A stretch of DNA of 39,122 bases, from contig CACSIL010000001.1 of NCBI GenBank assembly GCA_902705825.1, positions 190,937 to 230,058 on the forward strand, written 5' to 3'. Origin of the DNA: Halioglobus japonicus (GTDB lineage Bacteria > Pseudomonadota > Gammaproteobacteria > Pseudomonadales > Halieaceae). The notes under the pieces were generated by a model, which was given only the letters and a program-made list of their open reading frames with translations, was not told where the DNA came from and searched no databases. Made by a program: the position numbers and the translations under genes. Below, piece after piece: positions 4,433-22,555 of the stretch (its first letter is position 1; each line of letters starts with the position of its first letter).

Positions 4433-4434
4433 GC

Positions 4435-4440: not shown

Positions 4441-4522
4441 GCTATGCGTATATATCATTTGGTCTGGCGGGCATTAAAGCTGACTGTCTGGACGCGTGCT
4501 AAAGGAGCGGCAACGTAGAGTT

Positions 4523-7774: not shown

Positions 7775-7813
7775 ATTGCCTCCGGATTTCATCGAGCAAT
7801 CTTAAATGATAGT

Positions 7814-9015: not shown

Positions 9016-10038
9016 TTAACGGCGTTTGAGGCGGGCGAACTCACCCGTTGTTTCGGTCAGGCTGTCGCTGTACAGCAGATCGTGGGCGTCAGGGTTATTC
9101 TTCAGGTAGTTATCGAGAAAGGCGGTGGTCGCAATGTGTACCATGGTCAGCGCGTCGTCCTGCGGTGGTTGCTCCCGGTCGGTCCTGCAGATCAGGTTTC
9201 CCAGGTAGTGATCTGCTCCCTCCACCACCAGTGCGTATTTGTCGCCGGGTACCGCACCTTCAAAAGACATCAAATGGTCGCGCCAGTCGGGCCAGAAGGT
9301 CGGTTGGCTGTCCCAGGTGCCGGTGGTAATCAAGGTTGGGGTTGCGAGTCCGCTCCAGCTGTCCGCCGTGATCTCGTCAAACATGGGGCCCGGTGGCGAC
9401 AGTGCCACAATTGCGCTCACTCTGGTATCCAGTGCGTCCTGATATTGCCCGCTGTCAGGGTCCAGTGCTGCGGCACCGCCGAATTGTTGTGCGCTGAAGG
9501 CGCCAAAGGAGTGGCCTGCGAGGGCGATGCGCTGTCGGTCAATCTTTCCCTTGAGCCCGGACACGGTTTCTGCGAGCTGGGGCAGATCGTTCAGCAGGCG
9601 GTTCAGGTCGTCGACACGGGCCTGAATCAGCCCGAGGTTACCGTAGCGCAGGCTGTTGATAATCCCTCTTGCCATGCCGCAGCAATCGAGGTGGTCGGGC
9701 GCGATAACGACGTAACCGTGGGACACCCAGTGTTCAATCAGGCGGTCGTAGCTGTGGCGATCAGACCAGTTGCCGTGGGAGAAGAGAATCAGTGGGAACG
9801 GTCCGCTGGCATCGGGGTAATAGATGCTTAATGACAGCGCGCGCTGATCACCTGCTTCTGGTAGCTCAAAATTCTCAATGGCTGACACCGCATACGGCCC
9901 GACTTGTGCGGCGTACAGTGCTGCAATCTCCGCTGGCTCAGCCTGCAGCGGTTCCGCCGGTGGCAGTTCAGGTTCTTTGGCGCAGGCGCTGAGTAACATC
10001 AGCGCGGCCAGCAACGGTATTGCAACGCGGTTTATCAT
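9016..10038 (-). CDS. Lipoprotein alpha/beta hydrolase, PAF-AH/chlorophyllase/dienelactone hydrolase-like
   Basis: A 340-aa exported hydrolase. A signal sequence ends in the lipobox LLSAC (Cys19), so the enzyme is probably anchored to a periplasm-facing membrane. The core has FSHGN (oxyanion region, near 87), the nucleophile elbow GHSFG with S177, an acid candidate in TGTWDS and a histidine in GADHY. This resembles the PAF-acetylhydrolase and chlorophyllase-like branch. It is the last gene of the imidase operon, overlapping the upstream hydrolase by four bases (ATGA). It could cleave an ester such as a methyl or phytyl propionate of a tetrapyrrole, but the sequence only supports a serine ester hydrolase. 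Confidence 0.85.
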   Translation of the reverse strand: MINRVAIPLLAALMLLSACAKEPELPPAEPLQAEPAEIAALYAAQVGPYAVSAIENFELPEAGDQRALSLSIYYPDASGPFPLILFSHGNWSDRHSYDRLIEHWVSHGYVVIAPDHLDCCGMARGIINSLRYGNLGLIQARVDDLNRLLNDLPQLAETVSGLKGKIDRQRIALAGHSFGAFSAQQFGGAAALDPDSGQYQDALDTRVSAIVALSPPGPMFDEITADSWSGLATPTLITTGTWDSQPTFWPDWRDHLMSFEGAVPGDKYALVVEGADHYLGNLICRTDREQPPQDDALTMVHIATTAFLDNYLKNNPDAHDLLYSDSLTETTGEFARLKRR

Positions 10039-10982
10039 GGCAGTTGCTCCAGGAACTCTATGGCATCAGCTGCTGATTGCTGCGGTGCTTCCAGAGGAAT
10101 CACGTGGCCCACACCGGGGTAGATAACCGTTGTGATGGCGGCGGCATTGGTCAATTGCTCCCGGTATAGGGCGGCATGGGCGACGGGCAGCTGTGGGTTG
10201 TCTTCCCCCCACATAATGAGCGTGGGCGCGCTGATGAGTTGTAACTCTGCGCTGATGTCCGAGGGCTGCCAGCTGCTCATGCGTTCAAATTCAGCCCAAC
10301 GGTTGCCTTCCCCCCGGTACATGCGGTGTATCTCGCTCGCCAGTTCATCGGTGACGGTGGCCGGGTCTGCAACAGCGGCAGCGAGAAACGGCTTGAACAG
10401 GCTCTCGGGTAGCAGGTAGAAAAGGTAGCCGAACCAATCAGGCATGCCCCGTTCCATATACGGGTTGCTTGGCCTGGGCATGCCCGGCGTGTTGATAAGC
10501 ACAAGAGCGCTCACCCTGTTGCGGTGGGTTGCGGCGAAGCGCCTTGCGACTGCACCACCAGTGGATGATCCCACCAGCGCTGTGGTTTCGATGCCGAGGT
10601 GGTCGAGAAGTGCGGTAAGCAGTTGCACGCCGCGGTCATAGGAGTAATCGCCGGAGGGGTCGGCGCCGGTGAGTCCGTGGCTGGTCAGATCGTAGCGGAT
10701 TACCGTGAAGTGTTTTGACAGTTGTTCGGTCCACGCCTCCCACTGACGCATGGTATAGAAATGGGAGTGGATCAGTACCACCGGTGGGCCGCTGCCACTG
10801 ACCCGGTAGGCGAGATTAACGCCATCGATTTCAAGCCGTTGCAGGTCGTTGCCGCCGTATTCCTGCTCCAGTTGGGCCATCGGAATATCGCGGTTGCTCC
10901 ACCACAAAAAGGTGATTGCCAGCACGACAAGCAGGACAAGTGCCAGCAGGCCTCGTGTTATCCAGCGCAGGGCTATCCACAT
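10035..10982 (-). CDS. Membrane-anchored alpha/beta hydrolase
   Basis: A 315-aa alpha/beta-hydrolase-fold protein. One N-terminal transmembrane segment (about residues 10-28, rich in Leu and Val) probably anchors it with the catalytic domain outside the cytoplasm. Motifs are VLIHSHFYT (oxyanion loop), GSSTGG with nucleophile S140, a late acid in WGEDN and a histidine in GVGHVIP. It starts three bases after the lyase-family stop and overlaps the next hydrolase by ATGA, so it is co-transcribed and probably translationally coupled. The cap region (YMERGMPDWFGYLFYLLPE) is hydrophobic, which fits a lipophilic ester. The substrate is unknown. Confidence 0.85.
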   Translation of the reverse strand: MWIALRWITRGLLALVLLVVLAITFLWWSNRDIPMAQLEQEYGGNDLQRLEIDGVNLAYRVSGSGPPVVLIHSHFYTMRQWEAWTEQLSKHFTVIRYDLTSHGLTGADPSGDYSYDRGVQLLTALLDHLGIETTALVGSSTGGAVARRFAATHRNRVSALVLINTPGMPRPSNPYMERGMPDWFGYLFYLLPESLFKPFLAAAVADPATVTDELASEIHRMYRGEGNRWAEFERMSSWQPSDISAELQLISAPTLIMWGEDNPQLPVAHAALYREQLTNAAAITTVIYPGVGHVIPLEAPQQSAADAIEFLEQLP

Positions 10983-10985: not shown

Positions 10986-11873
10986 CTAGTCGCCCTTGTA
11001 GTTGTCGGCGGTCGCCAGCAGCTCCGGCGCACCCAGCAATTGATTGATGCGGGAGATGTCGAGCATGTCGCTGTGTTGATCGACCGTGCTGCCCTTATTG
11101 GCGATGGTTTGCAATAGATTCTGCATCGCCGGGATGGCGCGGTGTAGCAGGGCGACAGGAAACAGGGCGATACGAAAGCCTGCCGCTTCTACGTCGCCCG
11201 CCGTGGAGATGGGGCTATTGCCACCCTCCAGCAGGTTGTACACCAGCGGGGTGCGGCTTCCGAAGCGCTCGCCGATACGGTTGATCTGGTCAATATTACC
11301 CGGTGCTTCGATGAACAGCGCGTCGGCGCCCGCTTCCAGATAGCGCTCGCCGCGCTCCATAGCGTCGTCGAAGCCATTGACGGCCAGTGCATCGGTGCGG
11401 GCAACTACCAGAGTGTGCTCGTGCTCGCGTGCATCCAGTACGGCATGTATTTTGCCCACCATCTCGCTGGTGGAGATGACACTCTTACCCGCCATATGGC
11501 CGCAGCGTTTGGGAAAGGTCTGGTCCTCCATCTGTACAGCCGACGCGCCGGCCCGTTCGAACTCACGCAGCGTGCGTTGCGCATTCAGCGCGTTGCCAAA
11601 CCCGGTGTCCATATCCACAATAAGCGGGATATCCACGCGCTCGCGCATAGCGGCCACTGTAGCTGCAACTTCACTGGCGGTCACCAGCGCCATATCGGGT
11701 CTGCCGTAGCGTGCGAAAGAGATCCCCGCACCAGATACGAACGCGCACTCGAAACCAGCCTGCTCAACCAACAACGCTGTCAGGGCATCGTAAACACCAG
11801 GTGCTTTGAGTACGGTTGGCAGTGCCAGACGCAGCCGCAGGCGGGTGCGGTGTGGTTCAGGTGAGTCAGCCAT
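10986..11873 (-). CDS. Isocitrate lyase/PEP mutase-family C-C lyase (2,3-dimethylmalate or 2-methylisocitrate lyase-like)
   Basis: A 295-aa TIM-barrel enzyme of the ICL/PEPM family. Metal-binding aspartates sit in IVDMDTGFGN (D87, D89). The catalytic loop KRCGH (122-126, C124) marks it as a true lyase rather than a mutase or hydrolase. Relatives split 2-methylisocitrate or 2,3-dimethylmalate into pyruvate plus a short acid. No 2-methylcitrate synthase or dehydratase is nearby, but a LeuCD-type hydratase is. In nicotinate-fermenting clostridia exactly that pair (hydratase plus dimethylmalate lyase) handles dimethylmaleate. It overlaps the GntR stop by eight bases within the operon. Family call firm; dialkylmalate substrate inferred. 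Confidence 0.85.
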   Translation of the reverse strand: MADSPEPHRTRLRLRLALPTVLKAPGVYDALTALLVEQAGFECAFVSGAGISFARYGRPDMALVTASEVAATVAAMRERVDIPLIVDMDTGFGNALNAQRTLREFERAGASAVQMEDQTFPKRCGHMAGKSVISTSEMVGKIHAVLDAREHEHTLVVARTDALAVNGFDDAMERGERYLEAGADALFIEAPGNIDQINRIGERFGSRTPLVYNLLEGGNSPISTAGDVEAAGFRIALFPVALLHRAIPAMQNLLQTIANKGSTVDQHSDMLDISRINQLLGAPELLATADNYKGD

Positions 11874-12645
11874 CGAGCGTCAGGTCCATCTGGTATTGAA
11901 ATCTGTCCGGGTGGTAGAACACCTGCAAATAATCTGCGAGTTGTTCCTGTCCCCGAACGGTTTTGAAGGAGTGGCGAACCAGGCTTAGAAGCGGAGCGCC
12001 AACGTCCATGTCGAGAGATTCGGCGAGCTCTGCCGTGGCGGCGGTGGCGCTGATGGTCTGGGTAACATGAGTGATCTTCAAACCCTGTTTGCGAAAGATG
12101 GCCAGACGCGGTGAGGTCTGAAAATCTTTCTTGCTCACCGTCTTTTTGAGCCCGTTGGTCCAGCTCATGTAGTAGCCGAAGGGCTGGCCGTCACGGTACC
12201 GTACCCGCTCCAGTTGTAGAACCTTGTCGCTGGCGCCGACACCCAGCGCTTCACGGATTGGTGCAGGGGGGAGTTGCATTCGGCATTTCAGTACTTTGAC
12301 ATCGGAGTGACGGGCCATGCTCTCGATTTCCTGCAGCATGCCAATCAGCGGCGCCTGTACCGGTTTGGGAGTGTATTCATAGGTGACGTGCGTGCCTTTG
12401 CCACGGCGTCGCTCAACCAGCGTTTCCGCTGCCAGTTCGTCCATCGCGCGTTTGGCGGTGATACGCGAGACATTGAAGGTCTCCGCCAGTTGCTGTTCCG
12501 TGGGCATCTGTGCGCCGTTTTCGATGGTGCCGTCCAGAATCGCGCCCTTCAGCAGGCTGTAGAGTTTGTAGTAGAGCGGCGTTGGCGTATCCCGTTCCAG
12601 CGTGTGTAGCTTGGTGTCCTTGAACAGATTGGCTATCGCGTTCAT
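11866..12645 (-). CDS. GntR-family (HutC/UTRA) transcriptional regulator
   Basis: A 259-aa repressor-type protein. The N-terminal winged HTH is at about residues 22-88 (PTEQQLAETFNVSRITAKRA). A UTRA ligand-binding domain follows from about 95 to 245, with the family-typical VLQLERVRYRDGQPFGYYMSW block. Translation starts at an ATG behind GGAG. It lies inside the imidase operon, so it is expected to control its own promoter. The 13-bp motif at sites A-D is the best candidate operator. The ligand is probably a pathway intermediate such as an imide, maleamate or dialkylmaleate (inference). Confidence 0.9.
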   Translation of the reverse strand: MNAIANLFKDTKLHTLERDTPTPLYYKLYSLLKGAILDGTIENGAQMPTEQQLAETFNVSRITAKRAMDELAAETLVERRRGKGTHVTYEYTPKPVQAPLIGMLQEIESMARHSDVKVLKCRMQLPPAPIREALGVGASDKVLQLERVRYRDGQPFGYYMSWTNGLKKTVSKKDFQTSPRLAIFRKQGLKITHVTQTISATAATAELAESLDMDVGAPLLSLVRHSFKTVRGQEQLADYLQVFYHPDRFQYQMDLTLDG

Positions 12646-12654
12646 TAAAGCTCC

Positions 12655-13584
12655 TCAATCCTGCTGTTTTCTCCAGCAGTCATAAATTTCCCCTGCGTGG
12701 GCTGACCAAACGCCGTCCAGGTGACTCAGATAGGCCAGGGCCTTTTCAAGTGTACCGATACGGTGTGGTTGACCCATAAGCCAGGGGTGGATATTGAGCG
12801 CGAGAATGCGCGCACTGTTGCCACTCTTTGCCTCGGCGAGTAAAAAGTCTGCTGCATCGCATACCTGCTCCAGCCACGACTGCTCAGAATGGAAGTTGTT
12901 CATCAGTACGAAACGGTCTTCCAGTTCGTTGGACAGGGGCATGGCGACCAGTGGCCCGTTGTCCGTGCGAAACTCAAAGGGCATGTCATCGTTCACCCAA
13001 TCACAGAAATACTCTACACCATTGGCGGCTAACAGTTCGGGTGTTTGCTCACTCTCATTGCGTGCCGGGCTAAGCCAGCCGCGCACGGCCTGCCCGCTGA
13101 GCTCGCGAAGCCGGGTAACAGAGCGCTCTACCAGCTCGCTTTCGTCACGCTGGTCCATACCGCCGTAGTGCAGGCTGTCCATATTCCAGCCGTGACAGAG
13201 GATTTCGTCACCGCGTGTGGCTATTTTGTCCAGCAGGTAAGGGGCGCGCTCAGCCAGTTCGGTGTTGAAAGCGAAACTGGCGCGGATGTTGTTTTGGTCG
13301 AAGGCCTTCAGCAGCCGATAGATACCAACCCGGTTGCCATAGTCGCGCAGTGAATAATGTCTGAAATCCGGGTATGGCATGGTCATGCCGCCGGGTACCG
13401 CAAAGGGCTCGCCTTTCTGATTCAATGGGAAAAACTGTAGGCCGACATTGATCCACAGGGCCAGTTTCTTTTCGCCCGGCCAGCTGACCGGTTTGCGCTC
13501 TGACAGCAGGCTCCAGTCATAGCGCTCATGGTCCATGCCGTAGTGGCGCTGCGGGTATTCGAGGTGTTCTTTGTCCAGTGTCAT
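12655..13584 (-). CDS. Polysaccharide-deacetylase-fold hydrolase 1, allantoinase(PuuE)/cyclic imidase-like
   Basis: A 309-aa cytoplasmic NodB-fold protein with no signal peptide, so a cell-wall deacetylase role is unlikely. It resembles the PuuE allantoinase and cyclic imide hydrolase branch: RDYGNRVGIYRLL (80-92), GDEILCHGW (125-133) and a late HPWLMGQPHRIGTLEKAL block. Enzymes of that branch open five-membered ureide or imide rings. It overlaps the paralogous gene upstream by four bases (ATGA) and lies nine bases before the GntR gene. With the amidohydrolase at 14522 it would turn a maleimide or succinimide into a half-amide and then a diacid. Ring-opening activity is inferred from family and context. 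Confidence 0.8.
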   Translation of the reverse strand: MTLDKEHLEYPQRHYGMDHERYDWSLLSERKPVSWPGEKKLALWINVGLQFFPLNQKGEPFAVPGGMTMPYPDFRHYSLRDYGNRVGIYRLLKAFDQNNIRASFAFNTELAERAPYLLDKIATRGDEILCHGWNMDSLHYGGMDQRDESELVERSVTRLRELSGQAVRGWLSPARNESEQTPELLAANGVEYFCDWVNDDMPFEFRTDNGPLVAMPLSNELEDRFVLMNNFHSEQSWLEQVCDAADFLLAEAKSGNSARILALNIHPWLMGQPHRIGTLEKALAYLSHLDGVWSAHAGEIYDCWRKQQD

Positions 13585-14522
13585 GCCCGAGCCCCCCGTG
13601 CTGCGATGTCCTGCAGGCTCTCGTCGTAGTGATTTGCAATAAAGTGTTGTGCAATCTCACGCCCGGTGGTCACCCACACGTCCGAGTGCCCGGTGATGTA
13701 CTCGAGCGCTTCTTCGAATGCCTTCATCCGGTGTGGGCAGCTCACCTGGTAGTTGTGGGTGGGAATACACATCACCGTGCCGGATTGCTCTCCCTCCGCG
13801 TAAAGGCGATCGAAATTGTCTTTGAGCATCTGTCCGTATCGCCGGGGCTCCACCCGATTGACTACGTAGGCAATGGTGTCGTTCATTTCCAGCGAGTAGG
13901 GAATGGATACAAAGCGTTTGTCACTGCGCAGCCTGATGGGTGTGGGCTGATCGTCGTGGAACAGATCGCAGGTGTAGAAGCCGCCATTGTCTCCAAACAG
14001 CTCCGTGCCGACCTCGGCGAACAAGTCAAGGGTCAGTTCTGAATGGGACAATGCCGGGGCCAGATAGCCAGCGCACTGCTGCCCCGTATGCTTATGAATA
14101 CTCTCCATGGCATCGCGGATCATATCCCGCTCCTGCGCTTCGGACATCCCGTAGGTATAGCGTGTGTTATAGATGCCGTGACTGAAAAATTCCCAGTCGC
14201 GCTCGGCGCACAGGGCAATAAGCTCCGGGTGATGGTCGCACAGCGCGGTGGAGAGGGATACCGAGCCACGCACGCCGTACCGCTCCAGTACCTCCATCTG
14301 CCTCATGTGGCCCACGCGGTTGCCGTAGTCGCGAATACTGTAACCCTGGGTTGCGGGATAGGGTTGTGGCCAGGCCTTGCGATAGGGGTTGGCAGGCGGG
14401 TTCAGCTCGTAGAACTCGATATTCGGTGCCACCCAGAACGCGATTCTGGCACCGTTGGGCCATTCGATTTTGGGACGGTCCTCGTAGGGCCAGTAGTCAT
14501 AGAATCCGGGGTCGGCTTTCAT
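13581..14522 (-). CDS. Polysaccharide-deacetylase-fold hydrolase 2, allantoinase/imidase-like
   Basis: A 313-aa paralogue of the downstream gene with the same layout: WPNGARIAFWVAPNIEFYE near the N-terminus, IRDYGNRVGHMRQMEVL (63-79) and WEFFSHGIYN (110-119). There is no export signal. Its start codon overlaps the stop of the amidohydrolase gene by one base (TAATG). The two copies could form a hetero-oligomer or divide substrates, for example methyl-ethyl-maleimide versus carboxyethyl (hematinic) imide. The CE4 metal ligands are not fully conserved by eye, as in metal-independent allantoinases. The imide role is inferred. Confidence 0.8.
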   Translation of the reverse strand: MKADPGFYDYWPYEDRPKIEWPNGARIAFWVAPNIEFYELNPPANPYRKAWPQPYPATQGYSIRDYGNRVGHMRQMEVLERYGVRGSVSLSTALCDHHPELIALCAERDWEFFSHGIYNTRYTYGMSEAQERDMIRDAMESIHKHTGQQCAGYLAPALSHSELTLDLFAEVGTELFGDNGGFYTCDLFHDDQPTPIRLRSDKRFVSIPYSLEMNDTIAYVVNRVEPRRYGQMLKDNFDRLYAEGEQSGTVMCIPTHNYQVSCPHRMKAFEEALEYITGHSDVWVTTGREIAQHFIANHYDESLQDIAARGARA

Positions 14523-15208
14523 TATTTTGCGTCCACCTGTTCACTGTTCTGTTTGGCCAGCCAGTCGAGCACCTCATCCACCTCCACTACATCGGCATAC
14601 TTCAGCGACAGGTCGGTCAGGTTGGCGAAGTGATAACTCTCGTGCTTGTCTGCCACGCACTGCTCGGGAACAATGGTACGGTAGCCTCGGGACAGGCTGT
14701 CCACGGCTGTGGCGCGAATACACCCGGAGGTGGAGCCGCCCGTCAGGATCACGGTGTCGACCTTGTGCCAAACCAGCAGTGATTGCAGTTGTGTCTCGAA
14801 AAAAGCGGATGGCATTTTCTTCAGGTAGATGACGTCGCGTTCAGGTTGGATGTCGAGGCGGTCGTCAAATTCCGAGCGCTCTGAATCGAACTTGATATTC
14901 TGCAGGGAGTCGGGCGTGTCGGTACGCGTGCCCCAGATACCGGCATCTTCACCCGAATTCATATAGGCGACATGCGTCCACACGACCGGCCAGTCGAGCG
15001 CGCGAAAGTGGCTGGCGAGCTGGTTCACATAATCAAGCTGCTTGGGGTCTGTTTCATAGGCTGTGGCAAACAGATCGGTGCGAGTATAGGCTTTTTGTGG
15101 GTCGATATTGACCAGTACGGCTTTGCTGCCGAATCCGAAGCGCTTGCGTGCCGGATTGTTCTTTATCTCCTGGTAGATTTCCCGTGCTGTCTTGTTGCTG
15201 GTTTCCAT
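14522..15208 (-). CDS. Isochorismatase-fold amidohydrolase (N-carbamoylsarcosine amidase/maleamate amidohydrolase-like)
   Basis: A 228-aa cysteine hydrolase. The catalytic triad is visible: D36 (VNIDPQKAY), K130 before MPSAFF, and C163 in GGSTSGCIRATAVDSL with the cis-peptide-type GS preceding it. The STSGCxRA(T)xxD block is typical of N-carbamoylsarcosine amidases and NicF-type maleamate amidohydrolases, not of siderophore isochorismatases. It is the first gene of the seven-gene operon and is divergent from the GST with site D between them. It would hydrolyse the half-amide released by the two imidase-like enzymes, giving ammonia and a diacid. Family branch fairly sure; substrate inferred. 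Confidence 0.85.
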   Translation of the reverse strand: METSNKTAREIYQEIKNNPARKRFGFGSKAVLVNIDPQKAYTRTDLFATAYETDPKQLDYVNQLASHFRALDWPVVWTHVAYMNSGEDAGIWGTRTDTPDSLQNIKFDSERSEFDDRLDIQPERDVIYLKKMPSAFFETQLQSLLVWHKVDTVILTGGSTSGCIRATAVDSLSRGYRTIVPEQCVADKHESYHFANLTDLSLKYADVVEVDEVLDWLAKQNSEQVDAK

Positions 15209-15301: not shown

Positions 15302-15937
15302 TTGAAACTGTTCAATCTTGATCATTCGCCCTATGCAACGCGTGTGCGTATACAGATAAAACACGGCCAGTTACCGCTAGCGGTAGAGGCTCCGCCAGTG
15401 CAGCTGCGCACGCCAGAATTTGTGGCGCAATTTCCCTATGGGAAAATCCCGATACTGCAACTGGATGATGGCTCTCACCTGGCGGATTCCTGGGTAATTA
15501 TGGAATATCTTGAAAGCTGTTTTGCAGACAGTGGCCTGCTGCCCGCTGATGCACTGGAGCGCGCGCGAATGCAGACACTGGCTCGCTGTGCCGATACCTG
15601 CCTGGGGCCGGGTGCTGTGTTTCCGATGTTCGCGGCAGTGGCCAAGCGCGATAATGCGGTGACTCTGGTGGAAAACATGGATGCAGAATTGCAGCGTCTC
15701 GATCACGTGCTTGCAGGGCAGGGAGATGTGACGGCGCGTTCACTGCATCTGGGCGATGTTGCGCTGGCGCCACACCTGTCCTACCTGTTGCTGCTGGCAC
15801 CTTTGTTTGGTGCCGATGATGCGCTGGGTGGGTACGATGCAGTATCCGCCTGGTGGCAGTGGGTGAATACGGATGCAGCAGTGGCTGAGGAGTTGGGCGT
15901 GATGCAGCAGGCGGCTGCGGCTTTCTTTAAAAAATGA
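15302..15937 (+). CDS. Glutathione S-transferase family protein
   Basis: A 211-aa GST. The thioredoxin-like N-domain has S9 (DHSPYATRV) as probable catalytic residue, followed by the cis-proline GKIPIL and the glutathione-gamma-glutamyl motif DSWVIMEYLE. A helical C-domain follows. The start is TTG at 15302, supported by GGAGGG five bases upstream. It is divergent from the imidase operon and shares operator site D. Possible jobs are glutathione-dependent cis-trans isomerisation of a maleate-like acid (as maleylpyruvate isomerases do), reductive conjugation, or protection from reactive maleimides, which alkylate thiols. The last would suit the proposed pathway well. Family certain, role open. 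Confidence 0.87.
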   Translation: MKLFNLDHSPYATRVRIQIKHGQLPLAVEAPPVQLRTPEFVAQFPYGKIPILQLDDGSHLADSWVIMEYLESCFADSGLLPADALERARMQTLARCADTCLGPGAVFPMFAAVAKRDNAVTLVENMDAELQRLDHVLAGQGDVTARSLHLGDVALAPHLSYLLLLAPLFGADDALGGYDAVSAWWQWVNTDAAVAEELGVMQQAAAAFFKK

Positions 15938-15942: not shown

Positions 15943-15975
15943 GCTGAAGGCTCCTCACACGCTGAAGGCTCCTCA
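15943..15975. repeat. Two 15-bp direct repeats, period 18
   Basis: GCTGAAGGCTCCTCA occurs at 15943-15957 and again at 15961-15975, in the 35-bp gap between the convergent GST and Crp/Fnr genes. The second copy contains the Crp/Fnr stop codon. It looks like a small slippage duplication. Confidence 0.8.
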
Positions 15976-16656
15976 ATCCGCCAGTGCCAGCTCTTCGATT
16001 GTTGCCATGTCGCGAATTTCGATGGTGTGGGCGGAGTACACGTCGATCAGGCCCTCACGTTTCAGCTTGGAAAATGCCCGGCTGACAGTTTCAATCGTCA
16101 AACCCAGATAGTCGGCGATATCCTGCCTGGTCATTATCAGCTCAATGGAGTGACAGCGCTCTGAGGGCAGCCTGTCTGAAAGCTGCTTTAGTAGAAAGCA
16201 TACCCGTTCATGGGCCTTTTTCTGGCCCAGTGCAAATACCTGATCCAGCGTGTGGGCGAGGATGTTGCCGCCTATGCGCCGGACGTTTTCCTTGAGTTGT
16301 GGTACATCGTCCTGCAACTTCACAAAAGCTTTCAGCGGAATCTCGTAGACCGTGGATTTAGCCAGCGCCGACACGGTGAAGTCGTAGTGCTCGTTGTGTG
16401 TAATGCCGATGTAATTGCCCGGATGCATAAACGCCATGACCTGCCGCCGCCCGGTGGAAGAGGAGCGCTCCATCATCAGCATGCCCGCTTCCAGCACGTA
16501 CACGGACTTCGCCGGTGTATGCTGCAGGAACAGGTATTCTCCCGGCGTCAGGGTGCGCTGCCCAGTGATGCTTTCCAGGGTTGTCACCGCTACAGCATCG
16601 AGGCCATTGTAGATGGTCAGAAGCGGTTGCCGTATGTGTGGGGGTTGTGTTACCAA
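15973..16656 (-). CDS. Crp/Fnr-family transcriptional regulator (FNR/FixK-type DNA reader)
   Basis: A 227-aa regulator. A cyclic-nucleotide-binding-like beta-roll spans about residues 15-115, then a dimerisation helix, then an HTH at about 174-203. The recognition helix carries E189, S192 and R193 (IETVSRAF), the E-xx-SR pattern of FNR, which reads TTGAT-N4-ATCAA sites. The FNR cluster cysteines are missing; only C153 and C168 occur, so it is not an FNR-type iron-sulfur oxygen sensor. The annotated start is TTG at 16656 with no strong ribosome site. A 33-bp inverted repeat lies five bases upstream. FNR-type boxes at 18834-18847 and 21021-21040 are likely targets. Confidence 0.88.
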   Translation of the reverse strand: MVTQPPHIRQPLLTIYNGLDAVAVTTLESITGQRTLTPGEYLFLQHTPAKSVYVLEAGMLMMERSSSTGRRQVMAFMHPGNYIGITHNEHYDFTVSALAKSTVYEIPLKAFVKLQDDVPQLKENVRRIGGNILAHTLDQVFALGQKKAHERVCFLLKQLSDRLPSERCHSIELIMTRQDIADYLGLTIETVSRAFSKLKREGLIDVYSAHTIEIRDMATIEELALAD

Positions 16657-16660
16657 AATC

Positions 16661-16693
16661 TTTACCAGCAGGTTGCGCTACCTGCATGGTAAA
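16661..16693. promoter_or_regulatory. 33-bp inverted repeat before the Crp/Fnr gene
   Basis: Arms TTTACCA-GCAGGT (16661-16673) and ACCTGC-A-TGGTAAA (16680-16693) pair over 13 bp with a single bulged base and a 6-base centre. Its closeness to the TTG start suggests an autoregulatory operator or an mRNA hairpin that limits translation. It does not match an FNR box. Confidence 0.6.
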
Positions 16694-16717
16694 GATTTCA
16701 GGGGATGCTGACCAGCT

Positions 16718-17689
16718 TTAGTCGACGTAACTGGCCGCGAGTACGTTTTCACCCGGTTCGAAGCGCAACACCCCGAATGTGGTGTATTCCTCCTTGGAGG
16801 AGCGAATGAACTGCCAGGCGCAGACCATGGTGTAGTCGGCGTCCACTATTGTCTCGCGGGACCACATTTTGTGGGCTTTGCCGTACTCGTGGCGTGTGCT
16901 GTACAGATAGCGGCCATAGGACTTGCCGTTACCGTACAGGTCGGGGCCGTGGAACTGGTGGCTGCCGCCATTGCGGGTGCGCATCGCCGTCCACTTGTGG
17001 TTGATCACCCCCTCCAGTTCGATGGTCTGCTCTGAGTGCAGCAGATTGATGGGGCGGTGGTGGATGGTCACTTGGGTGTGGCCGACAAATTCCTGGTTTG
17101 CGTCGTATACCTCGAATTCGCCGCGGAATACGCCTGCGTGTTTTACCGGCAGGTTGAAGGGCATACGACCCTCGCGTTTCTCGCTCTCTATCCAGTCGTT
17201 TACGCGTTGCTGCGTTTCGGGATTGGTTTCGTGATCCTGGGTGACGATGTACAGACCGTTGAAGACGCCCACGAGGGTGTCCGCTTCAAACAGTTGCGAA
17301 GAGTAAACCTGCATGCCCAGTTCTGGCACCACGTGATTGACGGTGCGCAGATCCACATTCCAGCCTGGTGAATAGTAGCGTGAGTCAACCAACAATCCGA
17401 AGGGGCGGCCGGAGCCGATAAAATCTGGCCCGGTGTAAATACGATCCTGGTCGGAGTCTATGACGCCGAATTCCATACGCGAGCCGATCTCGAATCGATC
17501 CATCAGTGGGCCGATGGCGTCAAACTTGGTATCCATCCAGTAGGTGGTGCGCCCATCCTTGAACTCGCTGGCACGGCTTACCTTGTTGGTGCCTACATGG
17601 GTGCCATCGTGTTCGAACAGGGAGGGGCAGCCGTGCCACTCACCTTCAATAGCCTGCTGCCAGTTACTGGGTTTTTGCTCGTCGGACAT
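16718..17689 (-). CDS. Uncharacterised protein, probable beta-barrel (calycin/DUF3598-like?)
   Basis: A 323-aa soluble protein with no signal peptide and no clear catalytic motif. It is rich in beta-prone segments with two apparent halves. The first starts at IEGEWHGCPSLFEHDGTH and the second near residue 185 with HAGVFRGEFEVYDANQEFVG. A G-x-W-H motif near the N-terminus recurs in the 21062 protein. Such short W/G-rich strands recall lipocalin-like or DUF3598/CpeT-type barrels, some of which handle tetrapyrroles; this is a weak resemblance. The ATG has GAAGGG upstream. It follows the chlorophyllase-like gene on the same strand after 71 bp, so the two are probably co-transcribed. A tetrapyrrole carrier role is possible. 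Confidence 0.65.
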   Translation of the reverse strand: MSDEQKPSNWQQAIEGEWHGCPSLFEHDGTHVGTNKVSRASEFKDGRTTYWMDTKFDAIGPLMDRFEIGSRMEFGVIDSDQDRIYTGPDFIGSGRPFGLLVDSRYYSPGWNVDLRTVNHVVPELGMQVYSSQLFEADTLVGVFNGLYIVTQDHETNPETQQRVNDWIESEKREGRMPFNLPVKHAGVFRGEFEVYDANQEFVGHTQVTIHHRPINLLHSEQTIELEGVINHKWTAMRTRNGGSHQFHGPDLYGNGKSYGRYLYSTRHEYGKAHKMWSRETIVDADYTMVCAWQFIRSSKEEYTTFGVLRFEPGENVLAASYVD

Positions 17690-17760
17690 TGGGGATCCCT
17701 TCTACAGTCATTTATCAGTATTGCGTCGTATGGTGGCGACTCAGCGGTGGATAATCTTTG

Positions 17761-18759
17761 CTAATTATCAATTCCGGGGCGCAACTCGCCCCTTGCGATC
17801 AGTGGGTGTTTGCTCTCAAGTGTCTGTTGTAACTGGTGACGCGCCGCAGCGTCATTGCGGACGTAACCGCTGATGAAGCCCCTGATCAAAGACAGCAGCA
17901 GTTCGCGTATGGCTTCGTCGGGCGCGGTGGTATCCATGTCAATGAAGGGCCTGCCGGTGCTCTCGTCGGCGGGATACGCCATAGAAAAGTGGTTGGCGCC
18001 TTCGATCAGGGCCAGTGCGCAATCGGCGCGATTATCGACCATCGCCTCGTCGAACGTGCGCTCCACTCGCTCAGTGGGCGATGCCTGCCCGTCCCCGTAG
18101 CGCCCGGCGCTGCCTGCAATGCAGCCATCCCGGGTGCCGCCCATCAGCAGCGTGGGGACTTCCGTAGGTGTGCCAAAAAAACTGTCCTGGGGATAACCCA
18201 TGGCCGCGGCCGCGGCAGTGTGTGCGCCGTAGCTGAAGGCGCCACAGATACCCCGGAACCAGTCTGGCCTGGCATTGAGCAGGGCCACGGTGCCGCCGGC
18301 GGAGTGGCCGCCCAGTACTATGCGCCCAAGATCGAGGCAGCCCGCCAGTACGCCGGTTTTGTTCATGTGTGCGAGGTCTTCAAGAATTGGCCCGACGGCG
18401 GTCGCGCTGGGTGACTTTGCGTAGTTATCGGGTAACAGCGCCGGTATCGCAAGCCCCGGCGTAAGGCTGATATAGCCGGGCATCTCTTCTGCCACCAGTG
18501 TGAAGGTTACGGCCACTACGCCGTGTTCTGCGAGCCCTTTTGTCAGCCAGCCATAACTTTCGGGCCCGACGTTGATACCGGGAAGCAGGATGACAACAGG
18601 AAAGGGGGCGCGTTCACTCTCGGCGGGGATGACGCCCGTATTGCGCTCCTCTTCGGTGTCGCCGTAGCAGGCGGGATAAAACACCTTCAGCGATGCGCGA
18701 TCATACGGTGGCTCGGCGCCAGGAATGGCGATAGCCCGGTAAACAGCCCTGATAGTCAT
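17761..18759 (-). CDS. Chlorophyllase-like alpha/beta hydrolase
   Basis: A 332-aa serine hydrolase with no export signal. Triad candidates are S153 in the elbow GGHSAGG, D211 in GGTRDG and H257 in GANHFS. The FPVVILLPGINVGPESYGWL region with a following AEHGVVAVTF strand matches the layout of plant chlorophyllases (a glycine-rich oxyanion turn, then SHGFIV-type strand), and GHSxGG matches their lipase motif GHSRGG. Dienelactone or PAF-AH-like hydrolases share this fold. It is divergent from the Rieske gene with an FNR-type box in between. It could remove phytol or the methyl ester from chlorophyll derivatives. Hydrolase certain; chlorophyllase activity inferred. Confidence 0.8.
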   Translation of the reverse strand: MTIRAVYRAIAIPGAEPPYDRASLKVFYPACYGDTEEERNTGVIPAESERAPFPVVILLPGINVGPESYGWLTKGLAEHGVVAVTFTLVAEEMPGYISLTPGLAIPALLPDNYAKSPSATAVGPILEDLAHMNKTGVLAGCLDLGRIVLGGHSAGGTVALLNARPDWFRGICGAFSYGAHTAAAAAMGYPQDSFFGTPTEVPTLLMGGTRDGCIAGSAGRYGDGQASPTERVERTFDEAMVDNRADCALALIEGANHFSMAYPADESTGRPFIDMDTTAPDEAIRELLLSLIRGFISGYVRNDAAARHQLQQTLESKHPLIARGELRPGIDN

Positions 18760-18833
18760 TCCCGAAATGATTCCCGATTGGTTGGTTTGGCTTGTGAGTG
18801 GGCATCATGCTGCCACGGCGAAGCGCAAAAAAA

Positions 18834-18847
18834 TTGATAAAAATCAG
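18834..18847. promoter_or_regulatory. FNR-type box between hydrolase and Rieske genes
   Basis: TTGAT-AAAA-ATCAG differs from the FNR consensus TTGAT-N4-ATCAA by one base. It sits centrally in the 173-bp divergent promoter region, about 75 bp before the hydrolase start and 92 bp before the Rieske start. The Crp/Fnr protein encoded at 15973-16656 has the matching E-xx-SR reading helix. Confidence 0.6.
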
Positions 18848-18932
18848 TTTGATTGCTCCTCTATAAGAGAATAATAAAATTTCGTAAGCGTGTCTTGAAA
18901 CTTTACGTTGATGAACTAATTGGGGAAAACTG

Positions 18933-20090
18933 GTGCTGATTAATCTGTGGTATGTGGCTGAGTGGTCCGACAAAGTGGGCGTGGACCCGGTGCGGGTCAA
19001 AATGCTCGGTCAACAGCTGGTGCTCTTCCGTGACGAGGCCGGCAAGGTGCACTGTCTGGCGGATACCTGCCTGCATCGCGGTGGCTCCCTCAGCAAGGGC
19101 TGGGTAACACAGGGCAACGTCACCTGTCCTTACCACGGCTGGCAGTACAACGGCGATGGCCGCTGCGTGGTCATTCCCTCCGAGATGGAGGAGGGGACAA
19201 AAATTCCCGACAAGGCGCGGGTAGACAGTTACCCCACCGAAGAGCGCTACGGCATGATCTGGGTCTTTATGGGCGATCTGCCCGAAGACGAGCGCTACCC
19301 CATTCCTCCGTTCCCCGAGTTTGGCGACCCGAATTGGCGCGACGTGCGCTCCGAGTGGGTGTGGCAGGCCGATTCTGCCAGGGTGCTGGAAAATGGCATC
19401 GACATTGCCCACGCGTCCTGGGTACACCCGATGTTCGGACACAATCACACCGCGCAGCGCAACAAGATCATTAAGCTGGAGCGCCACGACGGCTGGGCGA
19501 CATCTACCAATGAGATGTACCCGCCTGCACTCAAAGGCGGCTTGCGTCGATTTATACGTAAGGATCAGGCCAAGACTCATGTGCACCCCACCTTCTATAT
19601 GGCGGGGAATACCATTCGGATGCACATCGAGGCCAATGCCAAGATGCACATCATCATGTTTGACGCCAATACGCCGGTGGATGAACACACCACCAAGACG
19701 TTTGCGATACAGGTGCGTAACTTTTTCCGCTCCAAGCTGTTCGACAAGGGCTCATTGAAACGCCTGGAAAAAGTGTTGCGAGAAGATACTGCCATCGTCG
19801 AAGAGACGAGGCCGTTCTACCTGGCTGAGAACCTCCATGGAGAGGTGTCGGTTAAATCAGACCGCTTTATGAGCACTTACCGAAAAATGCGTCGCGACCT
19901 GATTGAGCAACGAGGTTGGCAAATTGATACAGATGCCGTGGAGCAATACCGGGGTAAGCGGATATTTGCCGTTCCTTCAATTTCGCGGCAAAAATCGCGG
20001 GAGGAGGGTGTGGAATTACTGCTGGAGGAAATACCGCTGAAGCCACCAGTTCGCCCAGCTGATCCCGCCGTTGAAGCCGGACCAAACTGA
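18933..20090 (+). CDS. Rieske non-heme iron oxygenase, pheophorbide a oxygenase-like candidate
   Basis: A 385-aa oxygenase component. The Rieske [2Fe-2S] ligands are C46-x-H48 and C65-xx-H68. The mononuclear iron motif is ENGIDIAHASWVH with D157, H160 and H165. After the Rieske centre, GRCVVIPSE, then KIPDKARVDSYPTEERYGMIWVF follows the pattern of the PAO/CAO/TIC55/PTC52 group, though vanillate demethylase-type enzymes share part of it. The C-terminal CxxC and membrane helices of plant PAO are absent. The GTG start has GGGGA seven bases upstream. A separate reductase must supply electrons; none is encoded here. Placed between chlorophyllase-like and RCCR-like genes, macrocycle opening is the attractive role, though this is unproven. 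Confidence 0.85.
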   Translation: MLINLWYVAEWSDKVGVDPVRVKMLGQQLVLFRDEAGKVHCLADTCLHRGGSLSKGWVTQGNVTCPYHGWQYNGDGRCVVIPSEMEEGTKIPDKARVDSYPTEERYGMIWVFMGDLPEDERYPIPPFPEFGDPNWRDVRSEWVWQADSARVLENGIDIAHASWVHPMFGHNHTAQRNKIIKLERHDGWATSTNEMYPPALKGGLRRFIRKDQAKTHVHPTFYMAGNTIRMHIEANAKMHIIMFDANTPVDEHTTKTFAIQVRNFFRSKLFDKGSLKRLEKVLREDTAIVEETRPFYLAENLHGEVSVKSDRFMSTYRKMRRDLIEQRGWQIDTDAVEQYRGKRIFAVPSISRQKSREEGVELLLEEIPLKPPVRPADPAVEAGPN

Positions 20091-20114
20091 GCAAACGCGC
20101 TTCTTTCTGAGGGC

Positions 20115-20936
20115 TTAAGTCCCGTCAGGTCGCGGCAGAGTGCGGGTGCCTCCCCACAGTGTCGCGACCATCGCCTCTGCATTCTCCTTGCCAAACAGCC
20201 TGTCACCCAGGCTGTTTGCGGGGTCGCGCTCACAGATAGTACGGCGGATATGCTCATCGCGCGCGGCGATGGCGGGACGATCCTCAACTGGCGTCGCCTC
20301 CGCTTCGTCTACCCATTTGAGCCAGCGGTCCAGACGGCTCATGGCGATACTTTTGACCTTTTCAAGGACGTCATCTGTTGACGATGCTGTATAGCAAACT
20401 GCGGTAGGTGTGAGGGCAATGCGGGTGTAGAGATCGCGGCTGATGAACGGGTTGAATCGAGAGTCGGCCTGCAGATCCAGGAACTCCTCGTTGACTTCAG
20501 TATGGTAGTGATCGGCGTATTCCGGATTGGCGACAAGATCCACTCTGGGCAGGTAATCCATGTACATAAATAGATCCGGCACTGTACCCAGGGCGAAGCC
20601 GAAGTGCGGTACCAGAGATTGCGGCCCCAGGCTCACCGTGATGTGCATGTTGGTGAACGTGGATTCTGGTGAGCCGATGTAAGAGTGTACATACCAGTCC
20701 ACTTCGGGGCCTGAGTATGTCTTGAGGGAACCTTCGGAGCTTTGCTCGGGCACGCTGATATCTCGATAATCCGCGAAGCGTTCGCTGCAGGGATCCAGAT
20801 TGAGCTCGAAGCGCGCCTGTATCTTGGCGTCCATTTCGGCGAGGATCGCCCACAGTTTGTTAAAAACTTCGCGGTTATCGACATCCGGCGACTGCTCAAC
20901 CAGATCAATGATGGGGGTGAGAATGCGTTCGCTCAT
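20115..20936 (-). CDS. Red chlorophyll catabolite reductase (RCCR)-like protein
   Basis: A 273-aa soluble protein. The start at 20936 is chosen for AGGAAGG eight bases upstream. From memory of Arabidopsis RCCR (ACD2), the two co-align through most of the C-terminal two thirds. The strongest block is residues 127-140 (D-x-LPR-x-DLV-x-NP-x-Y; plant D-LP-R-KDLV-NP-Y). Then come FNPFISRDLYTRIALTPTA (161-179; plant NPYVSPSLF-R--FSPTA) and RRTICERDP...LFG (231-249; plant RRKSIEDD...MFG). D238 lines up with the functionally important plant D291, while plant E154 seems to be replaced by Ala. RCCR belongs to the ferredoxin-dependent bilin reductase family. The gene shares a strand with the 21062 gene and has an FNR-type box upstream. 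No haem oxygenase or phytochrome is present, so bilin synthesis is unlikely. Confidence 0.8.
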   Translation of the reverse strand: MSERILTPIIDLVEQSPDVDNREVFNKLWAILAEMDAKIQARFELNLDPCSERFADYRDISVPEQSSEGSLKTYSGPEVDWYVHSYIGSPESTFTNMHITVSLGPQSLVPHFGFALGTVPDLFMYMDYLPRVDLVANPEYADHYHTEVNEEFLDLQADSRFNPFISRDLYTRIALTPTAVCYTASSTDDVLEKVKSIAMSRLDRWLKWVDEAEATPVEDRPAIAARDEHIRRTICERDPANSLGDRLFGKENAEAMVATLWGGTRTLPRPDGT

Positions 20937-21020
20937 TACTATTACCTTCCTGGGTGGCTGTCTGTCGCCCGCCATGGGGGTGACCTTAGAAGTGTATCTT
21001 AGGGCGAGACCTTCATGCCA

Positions 21021-21040
21021 CGATTGACTAATGTCAATCG
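21021..21040. promoter_or_regulatory. Perfect 20-bp FNR-type palindrome before the RCCR-like gene
   Basis: CGATTGACTAATGTCAATCG has perfect 8-bp arms around TAAT and contains TTGAC-N4-GTCAA, the spacing of FNR/FixK/DNR boxes. It is centred about 95 bp before the RCCR-like start, after the stop of the 21062 gene, and could give the RCCR-like gene its own activated promoter. Confidence 0.65.
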
Positions 21041-21061
21041 TTTGCGATTGTGTTCAGTGTG

Positions 21062-21676
21062 TTATTGGTCTTCCGTCAGGTGTTGCCAGATGGGTGAGCT
21101 GAAGGAGGGTTCATGCACCGGACCCTCCGGTCCGCGCGGGTCCAGCAAGTGGCGACTGTCGCAGGTGGGCAGTAAGCGTGTGCCCTTCGCAGTCAGCGTG
21201 CGTACGGCTTCGCCATTGCGGTACAGCACCGTGTGCCGCACGCGTTCGCCGGGCGCGGTCAGCATGATGAAATCCGGCTCCATATAGACGTCGGTTGCCG
21301 CGCCGAGTTTGCGTGCATTGAAGGTCAGAATGCCGGGTCCGCCAGACATGCCGATATTCTCATAAGCACCGGGTCCCAGTTGATCGAAAACCAGTACGTT
21401 ACCCTGCAGCTTGCCGGTGAAGGTTTTGGCAGACGCTTCCCTGCCGCGAATATGCACATTGGTCAGCGAAAAGCGTTCACCGTCAAAGTCGATGTATACC
21501 AGGTTGTCGAATGGTCCCGGACCAGGGCTGCCGCTGCCTGCAGAAGAATCGTCATCCAGCGGTGTGCCATCGAGATTGTAGAGCTCAATCTGGTCGTGCC
21601 AGGTTCCGCGCAATTGCAGCAGGTTGTACCCGACGGAGCCGATAGGAAATTTGGGATAAGGTCTAGTCATATGCAT
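21062..21676 (-). CDS. Uncharacterised protein, probable small beta-barrel
   Basis: A 204-aa soluble protein (202 if the ATG at 21670 is used). No ribosome binding site precedes either start, so the message may be leaderless. No signal peptide or catalytic motif is seen. A GTWHDQIELYNLDGTPLDD stretch near residue 25 resembles the GEWHG opening of the 16718 protein, and many short beta strands with DFDGERF and NVLVFDQLGPGAYENIG follow. I suspect a lipocalin/DUF3598-like barrel that binds a small hydrophobic ligand; this is inference. It lies upstream of the RCCR-like gene on the same strand and is divergent from the NYC1/NOL-like gene, with operator site C overlapping its start codons. A role with tetrapyrrole intermediates fits. 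Confidence 0.65.
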   Translation of the reverse strand: MHMTRPYPKFPIGSVGYNLLQLRGTWHDQIELYNLDGTPLDDDSSAGSGSPGPGPFDNLVYIDFDGERFSLTNVHIRGREASAKTFTGKLQGNVLVFDQLGPGAYENIGMSGGPGILTFNARKLGAATDVYMEPDFIMLTAPGERVRHTVLYRNGEAVRTLTAKGTRLLPTCDSRHLLDPRGPEGPVHEPSFSSPIWQHLTEDQ

Positions 21677-21695
21677 AATGTTATATCAATATGAC
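21666..21695. promoter_or_regulatory. Operator-like site C, divergent promoter of the NYC1/NOL-like gene
   Basis: The minus-strand reading of 21672-21684 is ATAACATTATGCA, two mismatches from site A. Around it are perfect 7-bp outer arms, GTCATAT (21666-21672) and ATATGAC (21689-21695). The site covers the start codon of the 21062 gene and is about 70 bp before the SDR start. It ties the chlorophyll-type genes to the same motif as the imidase operon. Confidence 0.58.
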
Positions 21696-21707
21696 AAGCT
21701 GTGTCAG

Positions 21708-21719
21708 GTGCAATTGCAC
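21708..21719. promoter_or_regulatory. 12-bp palindrome GTGCAATTGCAC
   Basis: A perfect 12-bp palindrome lies about 45 bp before the SDR start. It is unlike sites A-D and FNR boxes. It could be a second regulator's half-turn site or chance. Confidence 0.35.
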
Positions 21720-21760
21720 AAGTGCTGCAAATAGGTGCGATACATATAACGGAGCAAACG

Positions 21761-22555
21761 ATGAAAACAGTAGTAATAACCGGCAGTACGCGTGGTATTG
21801 GCCGAGGTCTGGCCGAGAATTTTCTCGCCCGAGGTTGCAAGGTGGTTATCAGTGGGCGCAACCAGAGCGCAGTGGACGCGGTATTGGGAGAGTTGAACGC
21901 CGGGGATATGGCGGCGGGTTTTGCCTGTGAAATCTCCGATCCCGCGCAAGTGCAGGGGCTGTGGGATAGCGCGGTACAGCGCTTTTCCCGTGTGGATGTG
22001 TGGGTTAACAATGCGGGTATCAGCGCGCCGCGCCAAAACCTGGCCGATACCGATATCGCCGACATCGAGAAAGTGGTGCAGGTAAACCTGTGCGGGCTGC
22101 TGCTGGCCAACCGCGTTGCTCTGCGAGGTATGGCCGCGCAGGGTGGCGGGCAGGTATGGAATATGGAAGGCTTCGGCAGTGGCGGGCAGACACAGCCGGG
22201 TATGGCGGTATACGGTGCCACCAAGCGGGCAGTTAACTATTTGAACAAGGCCCTGCAGAAGGAGGTGGGTGACTCGGGAGTGCAGGTGTGCACCTTGAGC
22301 CCGGGTATTGTGGTGACGGACCTTCTGGTCGGTGATTACGATACAAGCTCTGCGGAATGGCAAAAGAGCAAAAAAATCTTCAACATTCTCGGCGACAAGG
22401 TCGAGACCGTGACGCCTTTTTTGGTGGACGGTATTCTAAAGGCCAATAAAAGTGGTGCGAAAGTGGCATGGCTGACGGGTGGCAAGGCATTTGGCCGATT
22501 TATGACCGCGGCGTTTAAAAAGCGGGATCTGTTTGCAGATGTAGGTGGGAGTTAG
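21761..22555 (+). CDS. Short-chain dehydrogenase/reductase, chlorophyll b reductase (NYC1/NOL)-like
   Basis: A 264-aa classical SDR. It has TGSTRGIG (7-14) for NAD(P), NNAG (83-86) and the active-site YGATK (151-155). In place of the usual NISS-x-AG segment it has GGQVWNMEGFGSGG then QTQPGMAVYGATKRAV. This matches the plant NYC1/NOL hallmark GGHIFNIDGAGSDG...AAYGATKRSV almost position by position, as does LSPGIVVTDLLV (plant LSPGMVTTDLL). NYC1/NOL reduce the 7-formyl of chlorophyll b to hydroxymethyl, the first step of chlorophyll b breakdown. The ATG has GGAG upstream. Site C lies in its promoter, next to the RCCR-like unit. Sub-family recognised by eye from memory; substrate inferred. Confidence 0.82.
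   Translation: MKTVVITGSTRGIGRGLAENFLARGCKVVISGRNQSAVDAVLGELNAGDMAAGFACEISDPAQVQGLWDSAVQRFSRVDVWVNNAGISAPRQNLADTDIADIEKVVQVNLCGLLLANRVALRGMAAQGGGQVWNMEGFGSGGQTQPGMAVYGATKRAVNYLNKALQKEVGDSGVQVCTLSPGIVVTDLLVGDYDTSSAEWQKSKKIFNILGDKVETVTPFLVDGILKANKSGAKVAWLTGGKAFGRFMTAAFKKRDLFADVGGS

Follow-up and report, generated by a model that had tools for sequence, protein, structure and literature searches.

A conserved gene block with RCCR-family and NOL-like proteins in Halioglobus japonicus: a candidate locus for the breakdown of chlorophyll or other tetrapyrroles

In plants, chlorophyll is degraded through the PAO/phyllobilin pathway, whose components include NYC1/NOL, SGR, PPH, PAO and red chlorophyll catabolite reductase (RCCR). 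Here we analyze a stretch of 39,122 nucleotides from the gammaproteobacterium Halioglobus japonicus (assembly GCA_902705825.1, contig CACSIL010000001.1, positions 190,937 to 230,058; hereafter the window), in which an RCCR-family gene (20115-20975) is part of a conserved gene block whose best reading is a locus for chlorophyll or tetrapyrrole breakdown. The host assembly (genome label G000) comprises 5.05 Mb in 53 contigs and is 93% complete. The likeness to the plant pathway lies in the RCCR family, in kinship to NOL and in the presence of a Rieske protein and hydrolases in the block. The locus differs from that pathway in that its Rieske protein is of the VanA type and lacks PaO, that the hydrolase at 17761 is not a chlorophyllase by model, and that the genes form an operon-like bacterial block with two further proteins, U323 and U204, and a lower imide module. 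Staygreen, the Mg-dechelatase (PF12638), was matched in none of 140 genomes of the taxonomic family, in a search that gave nothing in control genomes either.

RCCR homologues have been reported in Nostoc and Anabaena (PMC2716323). The cyanobacterial proteins belong to the same family (47% identity at the Nostoc loci L016 and L017), but their neighbours differ, being a CN hydrolase and an ALDH in Nostoc and a FAD protein and a nearby PaO-type Rieske protein in Plectonema; unlike in the window, a NOL-like short-chain dehydrogenase (SDR) and U323 were not seen at these loci. Ferredoxin-dependent bilin reductases, with pre-PcyA clusters in heterotrophic bacteria, fall in the same wider superfamily (PMC10151467). 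Genes for heme oxygenase, V4R and globin proteins are part of such clusters (PMC10151467), whereas no Pfam domain of these kinds occurs among the scanned window genes. Staygreen homologues have been noted in non-photosynthetic bacteria (PMC8531759).

Cyclic imide hydrolase/half-amidase pathways employ the same enzyme superfamilies as the imide module of the window, in a matching chemical order. A further comparison is the 2,3-dimethylmaleate hydratase/lyase route, which belongs to nicotinate fermentation. Here the matches are at the level of superfamilies, the window hydratase resembling bacterial LeuCD more than it does DmdAB-type models and being linked to RCCR. Among the open-licence PubMed Central matches listed, as represented by their titles and the starts of their abstracts, no bacterial gene set for dismantling chlorophyll is described, which is not proof of absence; in the main text of a Halieaceae genomics paper (PMC10100682), the words chlorophyll, RCCR, bilin, tetrapyrrole and pheophorbide are absent.

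RCCR, its NOL-like partner and the conserved block

The block consists of the following genes.

20115..20975, minus strand: RCCR-family protein (RCC_reductase), from Pfam PF06405, PDB matches and homologue lengths
21761..22555, plus strand: NOL-like SDR with a YGATK active site, from identity, reciprocal search and a tree
16718..17689, minus strand: U323, predicted tandem beta-barrel, in the same genomes as RCCR
21062..21676, minus strand: U204, conserved, no Pfam family, low-confidence barrel model
18933..20090, plus strand: Rieske non-heme iron oxygenase of VanA_C type, from Pfam, with Rieske and mononuclear iron motifs by pattern
17761..18759, minus strand: alpha/beta hydrolase with GHSAG, beneath the chlorophyllase cut-off
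15973..16656, minus strand: Crp/Fnr-family regulator with an ETVSR recognition motif and without an N-terminal cysteine cluster

Judged from its sequence, the product of 20115-20975 is a true member of the RCCR family, as a previous examination of this DNA without database searches (the sequence-only reading) had suspected. From its likely start at 20936 the protein is 273 residues long, a length shared with most homologues; its sole Pfam family is RCC_reductase (PF06405), at 70.7 bits versus a cut-off of 24.9; and a PDB comparison up to a threshold of E 1 gave three sequences, each of them Arabidopsis RCCR (best E 3.5e-13). The closest named loci are those of a Halioglobus metagenome-assembled genome (91%) and an unclassified gammaproteobacterial one (89%), with further named homologues in Halioglobus maricola and Parahaliea maris. 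Active-site residues of Arabidopsis RCCR are Glu154 and Asp291; the Asp291 column holds Asp in 13 of 13 aligned relatives, the Glu154 column Glu in one of 13. The gene is present in 10 of the 140 family genomes and in 11 of 361 order genomes (an even draw); the two sets overlap, with five of these 11 also in the family set, and the RCCR genomes seen amount to 16 in all, 10 in the family and the others outside it. A protein search of 398 phylum genomes was positive for the host genome alone, so RCCR is rare across the phylum.

The SDR matches general SDR models in Pfam and NCBIfam, and by sequence is a relative of the plant chlorophyll(ide) b reductase NOL, in keeping with the NYC1/NOL signature previously ascribed to it. 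It is 36% identical to Vitis NOL across 274 residues. In the reciprocal direction, Capsella NOL (P0242) gave 13 matches at E<=1e-25 in nine of the 140 family genomes, with up to 15 candidates scored per genome. All 13 fall within the 10 RCCR genomes, and 12 adjoin an RCCR gene; the thirteenth (L074) adjoins an MFS gene whose family accompanies RCCR elsewhere. The tenth RCCR genome, G041, holds a weaker SDR (L035; 40% identity to the window SDR). In a tree of 38 sequences, consisting of eight plant NOL, 10 of the main type including that of the window, nine of a second type (SDR2) and 11 other SDRs from the same loci, 10 of the 11 other SDRs split from the rest with an ultrafast bootstrap (UFBoot) of 100, the exception being a 181-residue open reading frame in L111 that groups with the NOL-like sequences. 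The gene positions given by the sequence-only reading were also correct, the likely SDR start of 21761 lying within the open reading frame 21701-22555.

The host genome contains a second such pair, in which SDR2 (45%) and RCCR2 (32%) are adjacent and follow an epimerase-like gene.

G000 C1:378401-379012; L004:7568-10111: second locus, with an epimerase-like gene, SDR2 and RCCR2

The SDR2-RCCR2 pair is also present in G591, G613, G682, G830, G048 and G027, and in other genomes an MFS gene is often next after the epimerase-SDR2-RCCR2 row. The existence of two paralogous SDR-RCCR pairs suggests, at the level of sequence, that the two types of enzyme work on related substrates.

U323 and RCCR occur in the identical 10 of 140 family genomes (Fisher p 1.7e-15, not corrected for relatedness) and in the identical 11 of 361 order genomes. 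Because strong matches to both lie far apart in G591 and G682, this co-occurrence is not mere linkage. The predicted fold of U323 is a tandem barrel (pLDDT 90), whose single barrels match nitrobindin, the phycobiliprotein lyase CpeS and Ycf58, and more weakly resemble the UnaG fold. This type of fold occurs in tetrapyrrole-binding proteins. Tandem barrels of the DUF3598/BFA1 type are a possible fold relative. A kinship of U323 and U204 found no support (profile comparison probability 2.6%). In G682 (C2:2336840-2338447), a U323 copy broken into several pieces, next to a weak match to RCCR, is apparently decaying, with an intact U323 elsewhere in the genome. Redox partners also appear near U323: in L012 and L013, RCCR and U323 are separated by a rubredoxin plus rubredoxin-reductase gene; a flavin-reductase gene comes after U323 at these two loci and in L010 and L022; and both kinds flank U323 in G729 and G765. 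These neighbours fit an electron supply for a reductase; no redox-partner gene was recognised in the window.

The co-occurrence of these genes in related genomes, on which the sequence-only reading had staked its case, was found in a comparison of 18 RCCR loci from named records. In the gammaproteobacterial loci L006-L015 and L022, some of which end at contig edges, the SDR, U204, RCCR, Rieske, hydrolase, U323 and Crp/Fnr genes are kept wholly or partly, in rearranged order, and in G613 and G830, which lie outside the family, U323, hydrolase, RCCR, Rieske and SDR genes are adjacent. Named bacteria with the conserved cluster are Pseudohalioglobus sediminis, marine gamma proteobacterium HTCC2148, Aestuariicella hydrocarbonica and Paraferrimonas sedimenticola. 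An Anaerolineae contig (L018) carries U323, an MFS transporter, RCCR and an acyl-CoA-dehydrogenase-like gene; the cyanobacterial loci L016, L017 and L019-L021 have RCCR with at most distant ALDH or Rieske relatives; and at L023 (32% RCCR identity) no other window genes were seen. Chance clustering is ruled out by the recurrence of the block across relatives. Relatives' blocks add a FAD monooxygenase, an acyl-CoA-dehydrogenase-like protein, a CN hydrolase and an ALDH. Two further families, F26 (L008:3172-3939) and F15 (L008:5891-6553), recur in them without a significant Pfam match; F26 reaches 10.7 bits against the RCC_reductase cut-off of 24.9, and we do not claim it as a further RCCR. In Nostoc, RCCR is followed by CN-hydrolase and ALDH genes (L016:10001-13459; L017:9983-13506), both of which are gene types found near gammaproteobacterial RCCR.

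Of the 140 family genomes, 53 have reaction-centre genes, and the 10 that carry RCCR are not among these (Fisher p 0.013). The absence of such genes fits a pigment taken from outside and disfavours turnover of the organism's own bacteriochlorophyll.

The oxygenase and the hydrolase fared differently from the labels of PAO-like and chlorophyllase-like that they had been given. The 18933-20090 product has Rieske and VanA_C domains and no match to PaO (PF08417) at E 1e-3, which rules out a PAO identity; its nearest solved relatives are NdmA, SxtDIOX and SxtT. The 17761 hydrolase scores under every Pfam cut-off, including that of Chlorophyllase (15.2 versus 26 bits), and a chlorophyllase identity is ruled out at this family cut-off. 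What stands of a bacterial PAO/phyllobilin-type pathway is thus the RCCR and NOL homologies and the conserved block, whereas the oxygenase and hydrolase belong to other subfamilies. The host's one PaO match lies elsewhere, on contig C45 (C45:236711-236959; L005:9051-10337), beside methyltransferase and acyl-CoA dehydrogenase genes; in the cyanobacterium Plectonema, a relative of this protein (L021:6371-7609) and RCCR are some 2.4 kb apart.

The adjoining imide/dialkylmaleate-type module

The locus is larger than first described, with U323, U204 and an adjoining module apparently belonging to it. The genes of this module, which extends from 274 to 15208 and further holds a LysR regulator and a cupin, are as follows.

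14522..15208, minus strand: isochorismatase-family hydrolase, candidate half-amidase
13581..14522, minus strand: PDA2, PuuE/cyclic-imide-hydrolase-type protein, family placing via PMC9304392
12655..13584, minus strand: PDA1, second PuuE-type protein
11866..12645, minus strand: GntR-family regulator with a UTRA domain
10986..11873, minus strand: PEP-mutase/isocitrate-lyase-superfamily lyase, candidate dialkylmalate lyase (KRCGH)
10035..10982, minus strand: alpha/beta hydrolase
9016..10038, minus strand: alpha/beta hydrolase over the Chlorophyllase cut-off, lipoprotein-like N-terminus by eye
7890..8837, plus strand: HMGL-type lyase 2
6581..7792, minus strand: class III CoA transferase 2
5956..6570, plus strand: LeuD-like small subunit
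4496..5956, plus strand: LeuC-like large subunit, candidate dialkylmaleate hydratase
1493..2410, minus strand: HMGL-type lyase 1
274..1488, plus strand: class III CoA transferase 1

From its sequences, this block looks like a dialkyl-maleimide pathway. PDA1 and PDA2 are kin to PuuE and the cyclic imidases at superfamily level: PuuE is their best NCBIfam model (110.7 and 115.4 bits, under the equivalog cut-off of 424.6), and PDA2 matched five PDB sequences, among them PuuE and 3qbu. The fungal cyclic imidase HxnM and the Pseudomonas putida cyclic imide hydrolase are placed near HpPgdA (3qbu) and PuuE (PMC9304392). For the PEP-mutase-type lyase, which has the loop KRCGH, the best PDB match is the petal death protein 1zlp, closely followed by methylisocitrate lyases and the 2,3-dimethylmalate lyase 3fa3, and the best NCBIfam model is prpB (256 bits versus a cut-off of 354.4). 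The isochorismatase-type enzyme best matches 4l07, the maleamate amidase of P. putida S16. The LeuD-like subunit passes LeuD cut-offs, and the LeuC-like subunit passes PRK12466 and PRK05478 but falls short of leuC TIGR00170 (549.4 against a cut-off of 560.25). A second LeuC-like gene, 49% identical, is located on contig C45, which would leave the window pair free for another dialkylmaleate. The 9016-10038 hydrolase exceeds the Chlorophyllase cut-off (49.4 versus 26 bits), and PAF-AH, Abhydrolase_6 and PETase models pass as well.

The module is associated with RCCR beyond the host. PDA2 (E 1.3e-120 or better) is found in nine of the 10 RCCR family genomes versus 21 of 130 without RCCR (Fisher p 2.8e-6). 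It lies within 20 kb of RCCR in seven of the 16 RCCR genomes (G000, G127, G028, G030, G034, G729 and G765) and elsewhere in the assembly in G120, G027, G048 and G134; G591, G613, G682 and G830 were not searched genome-wide. In G729 and G765, which belong to another family, a single 20 kb stretch holds half-amidase, PDA2, PDA1, GntR, CN hydrolase, MFS and RCCR genes and continues with the PEP-mutase-type lyase, ALDH, HMGL-type lyase and CoA transferase; a NOL-like SDR is present in the stretch of G729, and none was seen in that of G765. The module also sits without RCCR in bacteria having their own reaction centres (L091 and L092; 14 phototrophic family genomes), and no PEP-mutase-type lyase was seen within 20 kb in L091 and L092, the two RCCR-less genomes that were mapped.

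A proposed pathway and its rivals

On the strength of these sequence comparisons, we lean toward the view that the cluster degrades an externally supplied, presumably algal, chlorophyll-type pigment in a host with no detected reaction-centre gene. In the route that we propose, esterases would remove ester groups, and the NOL-like SDR would reduce a macrocycle carbonyl, either the 7-formyl or the ring-E keto group. Opening of the macrocycle would be an oxidation, for which the VanA-type Rieske enzyme is one possible agent and an oxygenase encoded elsewhere another, and RCCR would reduce the linear tetrapyrrole, with U323 and U204 binding or carrying the poorly soluble pigment. Further oxidation would give methyl-ethyl- or methyl-vinyl-maleimide and hematinic acid, after which PDA1/PDA2 would open the imide ring, the isochorismatase-type enzyme would free ammonia, and the LeuCD-like pair would hydrate the dialkylmaleate. 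Cleavage of the product by the PEP-mutase-type lyase, or by a CoA transferase together with an HMGL-type lyase, would then yield a 2-oxo acid and a short acid, and the Crp/Fnr protein would act as regulator of the block. That the imidase, half-amidase, hydratase and lyase fit maleimides and hematinic acid is our inference. Methyl-ethyl-maleimide, methyl-vinyl-maleimide and hematinic acid are listed among the degradation products of chlorophyll and heme (PMC7318184). More tentatively, the locus may accomplish the complete mineralisation of chlorophyll for carbon and nitrogen, with RCCR and NOL homologues that open and reduce the macrocycle, and barrel-type pigment carriers, as its upper half, and with maleimide enzymes that lead into central metabolism as its lower half.

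Several observations weigh against this proposal. No gene is assigned to ring opening or to the cut into maleimides, and by models the Rieske protein and 17761 hydrolase are neither PAO nor chlorophyllase. The column of Arabidopsis RCCR Glu154 holds Glu in one of 13 aligned relatives. Two NCBIfam names, LeuD for the small subunit and hydroxymethylglutaryl-CoA lyase for each of the HMGL-type proteins, are given above the cut-offs and would agree with ordinary metabolism of leucine or acyl-CoA as well. PDA2 was not found in the RCCR genome G041, and it is present without RCCR in 14 phototrophic and seven other family genomes; the imide module is therefore separable. Leaves, as reported in PMC7318184, gave hematinic acid and no maleimides.

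The main rival is that the cluster degrades heme-derived bilins or phycobilins, with RCCR acting like a bilin reductase and the imide module taking the resulting maleimides and hematinic acid, the latter being a heme product as well (PMC7318184). Relative to the ferredoxin-dependent bilin reductases, RCCRs are the outgroup (PMC10151467), the RCCR homologue P0092 additionally bears the bilin-reductase domain PF05996, and the U323 barrels have the resemblance to CpeS and UnaG described above; however, the SDR paired with RCCR belongs to a chlorophyll enzyme family, and no heme oxygenase was found among the Pfam-scanned window genes, a genome-wide search for one not having been made. We regard this explanation as unlikely.

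It is more doubtful still that the upper block detoxifies or partly uses a chlorophyll-type pigment while the imide module works independently, on another imide or dicarboxylate. The 20 kb linkage in seven of 16 RCCR genomes, including a second family with a different gene order, and the enrichment of PDA2 both speak against such independence, although the module does occur in RCCR-less genomes and RCCR blocks have no imide module nearby in L012, L013, L022, L113 and L120. Least probable of the three is that the RCCR-like and NOL-like proteins were recruited to act on some compound other than a tetrapyrrole, for instance another heterocycle, in a general oxidative pathway: the likeness of the Rieske enzyme to demethylases and saxitoxin oxygenases, the FAD monooxygenase, acyl-CoA-dehydrogenase-like protein, CN hydrolase and ALDH of relatives' blocks and the poorly conserved Glu154 would suit it, but the pairing of two plant chlorophyll-enzyme families occurs twice over in one genome, the U323 fold is one found among tetrapyrrole-binding proteins, and the block avoids genomes that encode reaction centres of their own.

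The yearly production and degradation of chlorophyll run at a scale of 10^12 kg (PMC7318184). If degradation of external chlorophyll is indeed the function of the locus, it would represent a bacterial route for recycling the planet's main green pigment; if mineralisation is complete, it would account for part of the fate of ocean chlorophyll, and plant RCCR and NOL would gain bacterial counterparts already working as a pair. RCCR and U323 could together serve as marker genes for metagenomes. The presence of the cluster in named bacteria makes its proposed role in dismantling chlorophyll testable, and it bears on the origin of plant RCCR and NOL.

Regulator, Fnr-type boxes and flanking genes

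The Crp/Fnr protein has cysteines at positions 153 and 168 only. Its ETVSR motif is of a kind tied to TTGAY half-sites. Three Fnr-type boxes and one further gene belong to this description.

21024..21037, no strand: perfect Fnr-type palindrome TTGACTAATGTCAA, upstream of RCCR
18834..18847, no strand: Fnr-type box with one mismatch, between the hydrolase and Rieske genes
17758..17771, no strand: Fnr-type box with one mismatch, upstream of U323
15302..15937, plus strand: glutathione-S-transferase-like protein with Pfam GST_N domains, recurring beside the regulator

Shared regulatory sites had been part of the sequence-only reading, and this idea survives by position and not by number. The three boxes in the window compare with 3.70 expected, a count that is not above chance, so an excess of boxes is not significant and the conserved position alone carries weight. 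The window and the loci L006, L007, L008, L009, L011 and L015 each have a perfect TTGAY-N4-RTCAA site upstream of RCCR, which makes seven of the 11 gammaproteobacterial loci holding this stretch, some of them close relatives. L010 and L022 have an RCCR-upstream box with one mismatch. No Fnr-type box was found near RCCR in L012 and L013, and no perfect site in the non-gammaproteobacterial L016, L017 and L018.

Between the regulator and U323, at 16657-16700, there is a long inverted repeat, AATCTTTACC...GGTAAAGATT, which is a possible terminator or operator. Farther along the window, at 33568-37123, a gene for a large FG-GAP/thrombospondin-3 repeat protein is followed by one for a PEP-CTERM protein; these surface-protein genes are apparently unrelated to the locus.

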